A stretch of DNA of 53,143 nt from Clostridia bacterium (GTDB lineage Bacteria > Bacillota > Clostridia > Christensenellales > Aristaeellaceae): the NCBI GenBank assembly GCA_017433405.1, contig JAFRHH010000041.1:1-53143 (forward strand). Direction: 5' to 3'. Both the position numbers and the translations under genes were made by a program. The notes under the pieces are model-generated. The model saw only the letters and a program-made list of their open reading frames with translations, was not told the DNA's origin and made no database searches. Positions 32,038 to 53,143 of this stretch are shown here, piece by piece (within the stretch, counting starts at the first letter, position 1; every line of letters starts with the position of its first letter).

Positions 32038-32127
32038 GACAGATTTTGTCCGCGAATCGCGCAAGCGTGAGCGGTATCAAAATCGTCATCCGGCAGAATG
32101 ACAGACTTGAACTGCCCATCACAGAGG
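32038..32127 (+). repeat. Leader repeat upstream of pcrA (A-type plus B-type element)
   Basis: The first part (from 32038, GACAGATTTTGTCCGCGAAT, then a variable loop and CGTGAGCGGTA) is shared with 34824 upstream of ligA. The second part (32080-32127: AAATCGTCATCC, GCAGAATGACAGAC, TTGAACTG, then ATCACAGAGG) is the B-type leader found before several genes. In this copy the GAAC half is kept but the GTTC half is CATC. It ends 28 bp before the pcrA start. Confidence 0.75.
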
Positions 32128-34823: not shown

Positions 34824-34914
34824 GACAGATTTTGTCCGCGAATTGCGTTTGCGTGAGCGGTACAGAAATCGTTATCCGCCGCAGAAGGCAGATGTGAACT
34901 GATGTTCGCAGAGG
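34824..34914 (+). repeat. Leader repeat upstream of ligA (A-type plus B-type element)
   Basis: This repeats the pcrA leader: the A part from 34824, then the B part 34866-34914 (AAATCGTTATCC, GCAGAAGGCAGA, TGTGAACTGATGTTCGCAGAGG). Here the palindrome GAAC-TGAT-GTTC is complete. It ends at the ribosome binding site of ligA. Confidence 0.8.
34896..34907 (+). promoter_or_regulatory. SOS-box-like palindrome (LexA/DinR type) before ligA
   Basis: GAACTGATGTTC matches the Gram-positive LexA core GAAC-N4-GTTC and sits 17 bp before the ligA start codon. An identical 12-mer lies before ylbF-mutS. It may instead be an RNA hairpin of the B-type leader. Confidence 0.45.
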
Positions 34915-34921
34915 AGGATAA

Positions 34922-40145: not shown

Positions 40146-40147
40146 CG

Positions 40148-40262
40148 CAGCGGCTGCAAATCGTCATCCATCGCAGCATGGCAGACGTGAATTACCATTC
40201 ACAGCGGCTGCAAAATGGTCATCCATCGCAGCATGGCAGACGTGAATTACCATTCACAGAGG
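40148..40262 (+). repeat. Two tandem B-type leader repeats upstream of the clostripain-like gene
   Basis: Two copies of 54 and 55 bp (40148-40201, 40202-40256) each contain TCATCCATCGCAGCATGGCA, GACGTG and the palindrome GTGAAT-TACC-ATTCAC. They end in CAGCGG or CAGAGG, the latter just before the ribosome binding region of the gene at 40295. The palindrome differs from the GAAC/GTTC copies by paired changes in both arms. Confidence 0.8.
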
Positions 40263-40294
40263 AGAAAAGCCCGGAGAGAAGGAGTTAAACAAAA

Positions 40295-48983: not shown

Positions 48984-49012
48984 CCGGACGAAAGAATGCC
49001 GTCGCAGAATGA

Positions 49013-49115
49013 TATACTAGTTCACGTTAGAATTTGCCGGAGGCAAAGCTCTTACGTGAACGTATATGCCGCGGGCAGGACGATGGTTTGGCAATCAATT
49101 CCGTTCGCGAGTATA
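49013..49115. mobile_element. MITE-like 99-bp element, copy 1 (flanked by TA)
   Basis: The 99-bp core (49015-49113) runs from TACTAGTTCACG to CGCGAGTA and is flanked by TA on both sides. It is identical base for base to 52278-52376; the identity extends over 105 bp (49011-49115). It holds a long internal hairpin: GTTCACGT and ACGTGAAC arms around a nested TTTGCC-GGA-GGCAAA stem-loop. Removing it with one TA restores a B-type leader of normal length. It has no coding capacity. Confidence 0.8.
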
Positions 49116-49120
49116 GACGT

Positions 49121-49132
49121 GAACTGATGTTC
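49121..49132 (+). promoter_or_regulatory. SOS-box-like palindrome before ylbF-mutS
   Basis: GAACTGATGTTC is identical to the one before ligA, in the same position just ahead of AGAGGAGGA. It fits GAAC-N4-GTTC. It lies between the 99-bp element and the ylbF ribosome binding site. Confidence 0.45.
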
Positions 49133-49151
49133 AAAGAGGAGGAAGAAACAG

Positions 49152-49565
49152 ATGCGGGAAGTTATGACAAAAGCCCAGGAGCTGGCCGAAGCCATTCTGG
49201 CCAGCGCGGTATACCGGAAAATGAAGGAGCTGGAAGGGGAGGTCCGCCGGGATCCGGAGGCGGCCAACGCCCTGGGGCAGCTGATCGAAAAGCGAAGCCG
49301 GGTTGAAAATATCCTATCGGACAGCAACATGGATCCGGAGGAGCTGAAAAAAGCCAGCCTGGAAATGGAGGAGGCGGAGAAGGCCATGAATCAGAACGAA
49401 AAGATTCAGGCCCTTCGGGAGGCCCGGAAGGATTTCCAGACCATGATGGATAACGTGAACAAGATTCTGCGGCTCGTCGTGACGGGCGAGGTCGCGGAGG
49501 AGCGGGAGACCGGCCGCGCTGGCGGATGCTCTGGCAGCTGCGCTGGCTGCAGCGGCTGCCAGTGA
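49152..49565 (+). CDS. YlbF/YmcA-family protein with C-terminal Cys cluster
   Basis: The 137 residues are mostly helical: MTKAQELAEAILASAVYRKM, ALGQLIEKRSRVENI and ALREARKDFQTMMDNVNKIL match the YlbF/YmcA (Com_YlbF) family. In B. subtilis these proteins with YaaT form an Fe-S complex that steers RNase Y and development. The tail ends GGCSGSCAGCSGCQ, four Cys in a CxxxCxxCxxC pattern that could bind an Fe-S cluster. AGAGGAGGA precedes ATG 49152. It lies between miaB and mutS, the conserved order. Confidence 0.88.
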   Translation: MREVMTKAQELAEAILASAVYRKMKELEGEVRRDPEAANALGQLIEKRSRVENILSDSNMDPEELKKASLEMEEAEKAMNQNEKIQALREARKDFQTMMDNVNKILRLVVTGEVAEERETGRAGGCSGSCAGCSGCQ

Positions 49566-49584
49566 GCATTCGGAGGAAGATGCA

Positions 49585-52179
49585 ATGGCCTTATCACCGA
49601 TGATGCGTCAGTATCTCGATCTTCATGCCCAGTATCCGGACTGCCTGCTGCTCTTCCGGCTGGGGGATTTTTATGAGCTTTTTTTCGAGGACGCGAAGAC
49701 GGCCTCCCGGGAGCTGGAGCTGACGCTGACCGGGCGGGACTGCGGGCTGGAGGAGCGGGCGCCCATGTGCGGCGTGCCGTATCATTCCGTCAATACCTAT
49801 ATTGAGAAGCTGATCGAAAAGGGGTATCAGGTCGCCATCTGCGAACAGATGGAGGATCCGGCCCTGGCCAAAGGGCTGGTGGATCGCCAGGTGATCCGGG
49901 TTATCACTGCCGGAACGGTCACCGATCCCGCCATGCTGGAGGAAAAGAAGAATAATTATCTCGCCTCCGTCTGCTTCCAGGGCCGCCGGGTGGGCCTGGC
50001 CTGCGTCGATGTCTCGACCGGGGAGTTTACCGTCATGGAGCCGGAGCCCGCCGCCCTGAAGGCGGAGCTCGCCCGGCTCGCGCCGACGGAGATCATCGCC
50101 GGCGACGCGGCCAGGGTTCGGGCGGAGATCGGGGGCGACGGGACGCGAATCGCGGAGAAACCCCCGGCGTGGTATCAGCTCAAAAATGCCCGATCGATCC
50201 TCCTGGAGCATTTTCACGTTTCCGATCTGACGCCGCTGGGCCTGGCGGAGCATTCCGCCGGGGCCTGCGCCGCCGGGGCGGTGCTGCGCTATCTTCGGGA
50301 AACCCAGAAAAACGGCCTGGACCACCTGCTTTCCCTCCGCTTTACCGAAAACGGCGAATATATGGTGCTGGACGCGAATACGGCGCGGAATCTGGAGCTG
50401 ACGGAGAGCCTCCGGGGAAGGGGAAAAAAGGGAACCCTCCTGGCCCTCCTGGACAGGACCTGTACGGCCATGGGCGGCAGGATGCTGCGAAGCTGGGTGG
50501 AGCGGCCACTGATCCGGAAGGAGGCGATCGAGGAAAGGCTGGAGGCGGTCGGCGAGCTGAAGGACGACCTGATCCTGCGGGAATCCCTCGCCGAAAAGCT
50601 GACGGGCGTTTACGATCTGGAGCGGCTGGTCTCGAAAATCGCCTATCAGAATCTGAATCCGAAGGACTGCGCAGCCCTTTGCTCCTCCCTCGGGCGAATC
50701 CCGGAAATGAAGGCGCTGCTGAAGGACGCCTCCTCCGAAGCCCTGGCGCGGCTCCGCGCCCGGCTGGATCCGCTGGAGGATCTGACGGCGCTTCTGCGGC
50801 GGGCCCTGGCCGACGATCCCCCCTTTCTCCTCTCCGAAGGCGGCTTTATCCGGGACGGCTATTCCGCGGCCCTGGATGAATACCGCCTCGCCCAGCGGGA
50901 CGGAAAGCAGTGGATCCTGGATCTGGAGGCCCGGGAAAGGCAGCGAACCGGCATTAAGAATCTTCGGGTCCAGTATAATAAGGTCTTCGGATATTATATC
51001 GAGGTCACGAAATCCAACCTGGCCCTGGTTCCGGAGGACTATGTCCGGAAACAGACCCTGGTCAGCGCCGAGCGGTTTATGACACCGGAGCTCAAGGAGA
51101 CGGAGCAGAAAATCGTCGGGGCCCAGGAGCTGAGCGTCCGGCTGGAGCTGGAGCTCTTTGGCGAAATCCGGCGGGAAATCGCCGACCGTCTCCGGCGGAT
51201 TCAGGAAACCAGCGAAGCCGTCAAAACCCTGGACGCGCTTTTGAGCCTGGCCCGGGCGGCTTCGGATCATCAGTATGTCCGGCCGGAAATCACGGAGGAC
51301 GGTCCGCTGAGGATTACGGAAGGCCGCCATCCCGTGGTGGAGCGGACCCTGGAGGAATCCGGCTTCGTTCCGAACGATACCCTCCTGGATACCGACGAAA
51401 ACCGGATGATGATTATTACGGGGCCCAATATGGCCGGAAAGAGCACCTATATGCGCCAGGTGGCGCTGATTGCCCTCATGGCTCAGATCGGCTCCTTCGT
51501 CCCGGCCACGGAGGCCTCCCTTCCGATCTGCGACAGGATCTTTACCCGGGTCGGCGCCTCCGACGACCTGGCCTCCGGCCAGAGCACCTTCATGGTCGAG
51601 ATGAGCGAAACCGCCCATATTCTCCGAAACGCGACCGCCAGAAGCCTGATTATCCTGGATGAAATCGGCCGCGGAACCAGCACCTTCGACGGGCTGGCGA
51701 TCGCCTGGGCTGTCGTGGAATATATCTGCTCGAAGGAGCATATCGGCGCGAAAACCCTCTTCGCCACCCATTATCATGAGCTGTCCGAGCTCGAGGGCCA
51801 TCTCGAGGGCGTCAGGAACTTCTGCATCTCCGTCAGGGAGCACGGGGAGGACGTGATTTTCCTTCGGAAAATCGTCCGGGGCGGCGCCGATAAAAGCTTC
51901 GGGGTCCATGTTGCCCGGCTGGCCGGGATTCCGCGCCCCGTGATCGCCCGGGCCCATGAGATTCAGGCCCGGCTCGAGGTCAGCAACATCAATCAGAATA
52001 CGATCGGAAAGAATATTCTGGGCGATGGAAAAAAGCGAAAGAATGAGCAGGTCGATCTGTTTGAGTATAAGAAGACCGAACTGATTCAGGAGCTGGCGGA
52101 AATCGACGTCATGGCGCTGACGCCGATGGAGGCGATCAATAAGCTCTTTCTCCTTCGGGAAAAGGCGAAGAACGTGTAA
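49585..52179 (+). CDS. mutS: DNA mismatch repair protein MutS
   Basis: MutS recognises mismatches and recruits MutL. The 864 residues are full length: mismatch-binding domain with GDFYELFFEDA (the F-x-E wedge, Phe29 and Glu31), connector, lever and clamp helices, and the ABC-type ATPase with Walker A GPNMAGKSTYMRQVALI (from residue 613), the signature region DDLASGQSTFMVEMSE, Walker B LIILDEIGRGTSTFDG and the His loop FATHYHELSELE. It begins 19 bp after ylbF. mutL is not next to it in this window. Confidence 0.97.
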   Translation: MALSPMMRQYLDLHAQYPDCLLLFRLGDFYELFFEDAKTASRELELTLTGRDCGLEERAPMCGVPYHSVNTYIEKLIEKGYQVAICEQMEDPALAKGLVDRQVIRVITAGTVTDPAMLEEKKNNYLASVCFQGRRVGLACVDVSTGEFTVMEPEPAALKAELARLAPTEIIAGDAARVRAEIGGDGTRIAEKPPAWYQLKNARSILLEHFHVSDLTPLGLAEHSAGACAAGAVLRYLRETQKNGLDHLLSLRFTENGEYMVLDANTARNLELTESLRGRGKKGTLLALLDRTCTAMGGRMLRSWVERPLIRKEAIEERLEAVGELKDDLILRESLAEKLTGVYDLERLVSKIAYQNLNPKDCAALCSSLGRIPEMKALLKDASSEALARLRARLDPLEDLTALLRRALADDPPFLLSEGGFIRDGYSAALDEYRLAQRDGKQWILDLEARERQRTGIKNLRVQYNKVFGYYIEVTKSNLALVPEDYVRKQTLVSAERFMTPELKETEQKIVGAQELSVRLELELFGEIRREIADRLRRIQETSEAVKTLDALLSLARAASDHQYVRPEITEDGPLRITEGRHPVVERTLEESGFVPNDTLLDTDENRMMIITGPNMAGKSTYMRQVALIALMAQIGSFVPATEASLPICDRIFTRVGASDDLASGQSTFMVEMSETAHILRNATARSLIILDEIGRGTSTFDGLAIAWAVVEYICSKEHIGAKTLFATHYHELSELEGHLEGVRNFCISVREHGEDVIFLRKIVRGGADKSFGVHVARLAGIPRPVIARAHEIQARLEVSNINQNTIGKNILGDGKKRKNEQVDLFEYKKTELIQELAEIDVMALTPMEAINKLFLLREKAKNV

Positions 52180-52219
52180 TTTGTCACTGCTCCGTCCGTT
52201 CGATCAGGGAAGGATCGCG

Positions 52220-52248
52220 TTGACAGGCGAATGATTGGATGATATGAT
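52220..52248 (+). promoter_or_regulatory. Sigma-A promoter upstream of the amidohydrolase gene
   Basis: TTGACA (52220-52225), a 17-bp spacer and TATGAT (52243-52248) lie 153 bp before the ATG, so the leader RNA would include the whole second copy of the 99-bp element. A second candidate (TTGGCA 52351-52356, 18 bp, TATAAT 52375-52380) lies at the element's right end, but its start point would cut into the ribosome binding site. Confidence 0.75.
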
Positions 52249-52275
52249 TTTATACAAATGGCAGACATGAACGGA

Positions 52276-52378
52276 TATACTAGTTCACGTTAGAATTTGC
52301 CGGAGGCAAAGCTCTTACGTGAACGTATATGCCGCGGGCAGGACGATGGTTTGGCAATCAATTCCGTTCGCGAGTATA
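52276..52378. mobile_element. MITE-like 99-bp element, copy 2 (flanked by TA)
   Basis: The core 52278-52376 is identical to copy 1. Left of it is ATGGCAGACATGAACGGA (52258-52275) and right of it ATGACAGAGGAGG. Together, without the element, they make a B-type leader of the same length as the others. This copy is transcribed from the 52220 promoter. Confidence 0.8.
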
Positions 52379-52400
52379 ATGACAGAGGAGGAAGAAAAGA

Positions 52401-53143
52401 ATGAAAGTAGACAAGATCATTAAAAACGCTAAAATCTTCACTTCCGACAGGGAAAATAAGCTGGCCAGCGCGCTGGCCGTGAAGGATGGAAAGTTCGTCT
52501 ATGTGGGCGATGAGAAGGGCCTTTCGGAATATGAGGGAGAGACGGAGGATTTAGCCGGAAAATTTATCATGCCCGGCATCATCGACAGCCATGTTCATAT
52601 CACCATGGGCGCCGGATACGAGCTGGTGGGCGATATTGGAAAGATGCTTCACTGCAACGGCAAGCAGGAAGTCCTGGATACCATCGCGGAGGATATCCGG
52701 AAGAATCCCGGTAAGCGGCGTTATTGCTATATTCTCCACAAAAAGATGCTGAACGACGAGGATCTCACGAAGGAAGATCTGGACGCGATTTGCCCGGACG
52801 GAGAATTGCAGATTCAGGAAGCGCAGATGCACAGCATCTGGGTGAATTCCAATATCTTAAGGAAGCACGGCATTACGGATGATATCAAGGACCCGGTTCC
52901 GGGCTTAAGCTTTTATGTGCGCAAGGACGGGCACGTGACCGGAGAAATGAGCGAGGGCGCGACGGAGCTGCCGATTATTCTGGACAGCGCCATGGATAAG
53001 CCGGATTCGGAGATTGACGCCGCGATTCAGCGCTGGATTGATTATTCCTTAAGCGTCGGCGTGACAGGGGTTTTCGACGCCGGTATTCCGGGATACCCTG
53101 AATTTCATGAGCGTGTCTATAAACGCCTTCGGAGCCTGGATCA
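52401..53143 (+). CDS. Amidohydrolase family protein (YtcJ-like), 3' end outside the window
   Basis: The frame runs from ATG 52401, after AGAGGAGG, to the window end (247 residues, incomplete). It starts MKVDKIIKNAKIFTSDRENK and has the small beta-sandwich of metal-dependent amidohydrolases, then FIMPGIIDSHVHI with the HxH metal ligands. A later segment (LSVGVTGVFDAGIPG) agrees with the YtcJ-like group of exoenzyme-type amidohydrolases. Members are usually about 530-550 residues. The substrate is unknown. It has its own promoter and is probably not co-transcribed with mutS. Confidence 0.88.
   Translation, partial: MKVDKIIKNAKIFTSDRENKLASALAVKDGKFVYVGDEKGLSEYEGETEDLAGKFIMPGIIDSHVHITMGAGYELVGDIGKMLHCNGKQEVLDTIAEDIRKNPGKRRYCYILHKKMLNDEDLTKEDLDAICPDGELQIQEAQMHSIWVNSNILRKHGITDDIKDPVPGLSFYVRKDGHVTGEMSEGATELPIILDSAMDKPDSEIDAAIQRWIDYSLSVGVTGVFDAGIPGYPEFHERVYKRLRSLD

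Follow-up and report, generated by a model that had tools for sequence, protein, structure and literature searches.

Short bacterial repeats that end in TA have been described in several organisms. The repeat unit of pneumococcus (RUP) is intergenic, measures 107 bp, has a 9 bp terminal inverted repeat and TA ends, and is predicted to give a folded transcript (PMC2229807, PMC3049150); a TA duplication is reported for it as well (PMC2229807). The Correia or NEMIS repeats of Neisseria also have TA ends, measure about 107 and 155 bp and come with stem–loop transcripts and sigma-70-like promoters near genes (PMC2229807, PMC10969869), and their transcripts undergo RNase III processing (PMC10969869). 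CIR, of Caulobacter and Brucella, is described as two hairpin arms and a linker with TA termini (PMC2229807).

Two copies of a comparable sequence, which we call element A, lie in the window, i.e., the whole stretch of 53,143 nucleotides of DNA analysed here. We regard element A as very probably a 99-bp non-autonomous DNA transposon (MITE) whose ends would be recognised in trans by a transposase targeting TA, with duplication of that TA on insertion. Compared by description, it is like RUP in its similar size, short inverted repeat, TA ends, intergenic position and predicted folded transcript; unlike it, RUP has 108–110 copies and a proposed partner with similar ends, IS630-Spn1, whereas element A gave 22 matches and no partner in our searches. 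Its likeness to Correia, again by description, consists of the TA ends, the size, the stem–loops and the promoter-like sequence near genes; however, Correia repeats have 24-bp terminal repeats and a promoter function seen through expression in E. coli, whereas element A has short ends and a promoter defined by consensus match. The two hairpin arms, linker and TA termini recall CIR, but the latter carries a conserved GANTC site and has no known target duplication (PMC2229807).

Element A and its copies

The segments 49011–49115 and 52274–52378 are identical over 105 bp, to the base as the original prediction had claimed, and its reading of the core (99 bp, TACTAG...GAGTA, with TA at either side) is correct at both sites (Table 1). 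With both TAs the element measures 103 bp, and it is from this length alone that we class it as non-coding. The terminal inverted repeat, TATACT/AGTATA in five identical copies, is short: 6 bp including the TA, or 8 of 12 positions when extended by eye.

Table 1. Positions of element A, B-leader parts, predicted structures and genes; positions are those of the window unless another contig is named.
Feature	Position	Strand	Remarks
Element A, copy 1	49013–49115	+	Core 49015–49113; TAs 49013–49014 and 49114–49115
Element A, copy 2	52276–52378	+	Core 52278–52376; TAs 52276–52277 and 52377–52378
Predicted hairpin 1, copy 1	49020–49061	+	GTTCACGT...TTTGCC GGA GGCAAA...ACGTGAAC
Predicted hairpin 2, copy 1	49068–49112	+	From folding; slightly shorter in two other folds
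Predicted hairpin 1, copy 2	52283–52324	+	By sequence identity with copy 1
Predicted hairpin 2, copy 2	52331–52375	+	By sequence identity with copy 1
Right end, copy 1	49088–49117	+	TTGGCA, 18 nt, TATAGA; weaker, 9/12; not reported by separate scan
Promoter-like right end, copy 2	52351–52380	+	TTGGCA, 18 nt, TATAAT, final two bases supplied by target; 11/12, consensus match only
Promoter-like site upstream of copy 2	52220–52248	+	TTGACA, 17 nt, TATGAT; 11/12, consensus match only
B leader in window	32042–32127, 34828–34918, 40146–40264, 49115–49143		
B-leader right part entered by copy 1	49116–49143	+	Hairpin and Shine-Dalgarno
B-leader left part entered by copy 2	52257–52275	+	
B-leader right part at copy 2	52379–52395	+	Shine-Dalgarno AGAGGAGG
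YlbF family gene (Com_YlbF)	49152–49565	+	Downstream of copy 1
Amidohydrolase gene (Amidohydro_3)	52401–53141	+	Downstream of copy 2; runs off contig
RAYT-like Y1 transposase (Y1_Tnp), 247 aa	805–1548 of locus L140, contig C5 of host genome (G000)	−	Sole Y1_Tnp match in host genome

The host draft genome (2.53 Mb, 92 contigs, 89% complete) is the sole genome of its species in the analysis. Searching it with the 99-mer had been suggested on the strength of the two copies seen in the window; with the 105-mer as query, we found 22 matches at E ≤ 0.001. Five copies, identical across 103 bp, are distributed over four contigs: the window pair is on C14, and the others occur singly on C83, C20 and C6; all five start with TATACTAG and end with GAGTATA, and their flanks vary. 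The window pair is not a segmental duplication, since its flanks are not alike and, besides it, C83, C20 and C6 each carry an identical copy. Two further full-length copies have 87 and 89% identity, each of these diverged copies (L006 and L007) retaining one intact end, and the remaining 15 matches are shorter, diverged or partial. A 55-bp form (L012) keeps, by eye, the first hairpin and the GAGTATA end. Diverged and partial copies of this sort are what an older family would leave. Some copies are not near gene starts, or run antisense to genes (partly by eye). Element A is, then, short (<200 bp), dispersed and multi-copy, with defined ends that carry terminal inverted repeats in the five identical copies, all of which are features of MITEs.

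Outside the host genome, the search among relatives that the original prediction had also proposed gave no match in any of 40 genomes (24 congeneric) at E ≤ 0.001, nor did the ylbF loci of 21 congeners at E ≤ 1. Exact degenerate patterns had no match in a one-per-species genome collection or in viral contigs, both of which perhaps exclude records very near the host genome, and plasmids and phages gave no blastn match at 1e-5. The right-end 18-mer, allowing at most one mismatch, occurs at two single places in 44 other genomes of the genus, and blastn of these two loci with element A returned nothing at E ≤ 1. No publication title or abstract naming the family was found, the sequence itself not being searchable in the literature. 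We consider element A a new MITE family, so far in one genome, of a kind that is itself familiar.

Insertion into B leaders

The sites entered by element A belong to another repeat of the host genome. This B leader is roughly 90 bp long, is in some places arranged in tandem, and closes with a hairpin plus a Shine-Dalgarno sequence (GACGTGAACTGNNGTTCACAGAGGAGG). A search of the genome that tolerates up to three mismatches locates this tail at 255 places and a reversed control at none. In a sample of 416,802 bases, made up of the window and of regions picked to surround A and B matches, an ORF (at least 80 aa, or at least 30 aa if running off the stretch) starts within 60 nt after 60 of 78 B tails, and 40 of these starts lie at 5–16 nt; the corresponding controls were 20/78 in the opposite direction and 2096/5000 at random positions. 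An 89-mer of the B leader has a match in one of 30 relatives (G009). The B leader looks like a spreading 5′ UTR; it is far more abundant than element A, more surprising, and probably the more interesting object. A shared origin of element A and the B leader is not supported, as 115 of 1000 shuffles align locally at least as well as the two do (score 26).

Copy 1 is flanked by a radical SAM/TRAM (MiaB-like) gene and by ylbF-mutS. The placement proposed for both copies in 5′ leaders, copy 1 before ylbF-mutS and copy 2 before an amidohydrolase gene, holds. Copy 2 is probably transcribed within the amidohydrolase 5′ UTR, given the promoter-like sequence upstream of it. We compared each host site, with no, one or two TAs kept, to a B consensus built from 77 B copies that exclude the copy-1 site. 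Matches out of 48 were 32, 34 and 31 for copy 1 and 26, 31 and 26 for copy 2; against the best single B copy they were 35, 40 and 33, and 28, 33 and 28, respectively. Keeping one TA gives the best fit at both sites, by a small margin for copy 1 (34 vs. 32), and the B leader at copy 2 is diverged (31/48). The entry points within the B leader differ, which means two separate insertion events, in agreement with the original prediction. The best fit also supports a TA target duplication at both window sites, a reading in which the empty sites are taken from a paralogous repeat. As judged from these paralogous host leaders at two sites, the duplicated target is TA, in line with the target duplication of MITEs and the TA duplication of IS630/Tc1-mariner elements, although an enzyme of IS200/IS605 type that cleaved after TA both in the target and at the right end would leave a duplicated TA as well.

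Relatives are unusable as a source of orthologous empty sites because they are too distant (56–74% protein identity). Leaders are short in the 13 of 21 relatives' ylbF loci that were read on the leader side, the other eight having been read on the mutS side, and the amidohydrolase orthologues (leaders of four relatives' loci) were of no help in this respect. What the host-site comparison shows is an element entering an existing 5′ leader and leaving the ribosome binding site intact. As a MITE, element A would be recognised in trans by a transposase through its short ends, TACT...AGTA, and inserted at TA, which would be duplicated; in this way, the window copies would have been incorporated into the 5′ leaders upstream of ylbF-mutS and the amidohydrolase gene, adding two predicted RNA hairpins with predicted Shine-Dalgarno access unchanged, and the promoter-like right end might add transcription.

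A promoter-like right end

The right end of element A, TTGGCA-18-TATA with target bases able to complete TATAAT, may constitute an outward promoter, judging from its sequence. We counted consensus positions in the right ends of 18 of the 22 matches, excluding L016, L018, L021 and L022, which have no clear right end: 11 of 12 positions are matched in five, 10 in four, nine in five, eight in one, and fewer in three. It is conceivable that element A is a mobile promoter under selection, the right end giving a −35 and most of a −10 and insertion upstream of genes being favoured. Half of the right ends (9/18, five of them with 11) match 10 or 11 of the 12 positions, in a sampled genome where 11-or-12 matches occur 42 times in 833,604 strand-bases, A copies included; moreover, a gene start lies 17–56 nt from the right end in 8 of 18 (by eye). 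Copy 1, on the other hand, has TATAGA only, and TATAAT is completed in two of the eight right ends that face a nearby gene start vs. four of the ten others (gene starts by eye), so we see no sign of selection for a promoter and find this explanation doubtful.

A related possibility, which we hold to be unlikely, is that of a portable promoter: the duplicated TA, together with the target bases that follow it, would complete the −10, and choosing a TAAT target would amount to making a promoter, in a host with many gene leaders copied from a dispersed repeat of hairpin and Shine-Dalgarno. If the right end were an active promoter, insertions would alter the expression of housekeeping genes, e.g., mutS. 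As a separate observation, the right end of one A copy (L011, ~1501–1558) appears, by eye, to provide an opposite-strand gene with its last codons and stop.

Candidate enzymes and RNA structure

Movement of element A as a MITE would require a transposase acting on its ends. Enzymes of the IS630/Tc1-mariner type duplicate TA, and the original prediction had named this type for element A. The TA duplication fits, but no DDE_3 (IS630-type) transposase was found in the 89%-complete host genome. Of the 45 genus genomes, 6 contain DDE_3, with eight matches in all. The best TA-flanked repeats around these eight, as their putative ends, do not resemble TACTAG; several have no convincing ends and two loci are short. 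Among these eight matches, no putative ends in common with element A were seen. The transposase with TACTAG-type terminal repeats that had been anticipated did not turn up. Element A has 13 left-end and 17 right-end places, and among these (lists by eye) we saw no two ends enclosing a longer element. Twenty reading frames close to end-only or partial copies, scanned with Pfam, gave no transposase. A TniB match in the Clp-type ATPase of L012 (E 1.8e-5, weak) was set aside as AAA cross-matching.

Repeats the size of an IS are often absent from draft assemblies, and a missing transposase is for this reason weak evidence. We infer that the host either no longer has the enzyme or encodes it in a region missing from the assembly, and give about even chances to its having been of the IS630/Tc1-mariner type. 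Other bacterial repeats accepted as MITEs are also without a known partner (PMC2229807).

A different kind of enzyme would be involved if element A were a single-strand element (HUH, IS200/IS605 or RAYT type), with the hairpins as subterminal recognition structures and TA as a cleavage site, without duplication. Two predicted hairpins, the lack of a long terminal inverted repeat and the one Y1_Tnp gene of the host genome agree with such an element. However, the symmetric TATACT/AGTATA ends suit a DDE enzyme better, and the Y1 gene is not flanked by the repeat: element A is absent from its own 3 kb locus (by eye), where a B copy lies upstream of the gene, and neither A nor B occurs in any of 80 RAYT loci of other genomes at E < 0.1, leaving RAYT unsupported as a partner. 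In all four of these 80 loci with flanks read, a third repeat, an GACAAGGGGACGGTTCTTTTGTC-like palindrome, stands beside the gene instead (by eye), and the host Y1/RAYT transposase seems to belong with a repeat other than element A. We therefore think a single-strand element quite unlikely. Words similar to the GACAAGGGGACGGTTCTTTTGTC-type palindrome recur in the host genome.

Turning to the RNA that the MITE copies would contribute to leaders, the arms of the long hairpin described in the original prediction are present (GTTCACGT, 49020–49027, with ACGTGAAC, 49054–49061), as are the nested ones (TTTGCC, 49033–49038, with GGCAAA, 49042–49047), and folding gives a second hairpin (~49068–49112) in addition to that single one. 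Element A folds better than its shuffles both as DNA (z −4.0) and as RNA (z −4.7), with none of 200 shuffles folding as well in either case. In an RNA alignment of 11 of the 22 matches, of which five rows share one and the same element sequence, changes on both sides are seen in 4 of the 34 predicted pairs, and the covariation term is unfavourable (+1.22), so that selection on the RNA is not supported. Predicted accessibility of the Shine-Dalgarno barely changes when the element is taken out (0.91 with and 0.91 without copy 1; 0.95 and 0.94, respectively, for copy 2), and a simple block of translation is therefore not predicted. An RNA role is possible as far as these models go, and so, by analogy with Correia, is RNase III processing of the transcripts. 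That element A is a conserved regulatory RNA or cis-element of leaders and not mobile is highly improbable: the strong fold, the pairs changed on both sides and the leader position are in its favour, but the insertions break a pre-existing leader at different points, other copies stand away from gene starts or antisense, the covariation is unfavourable, relatives have no match, and an Rfam scan of the window gave no family at its gathering score.

Two minor observations concern the amidohydrolase gene. In a congener (G054, contig C23, 56692–58707; L246, L083), a relative of this amidohydrolase (66% identity) starts some 0.9 kb away from an IS630-type gene, possibly by chance. Finally, contig C79 of the host genome (G000) probably continues contig C14, since the amidohydrolase fragment at the right edge of the window ends in a 21-aa stretch that recurs identically at positions 3–65 of C79.
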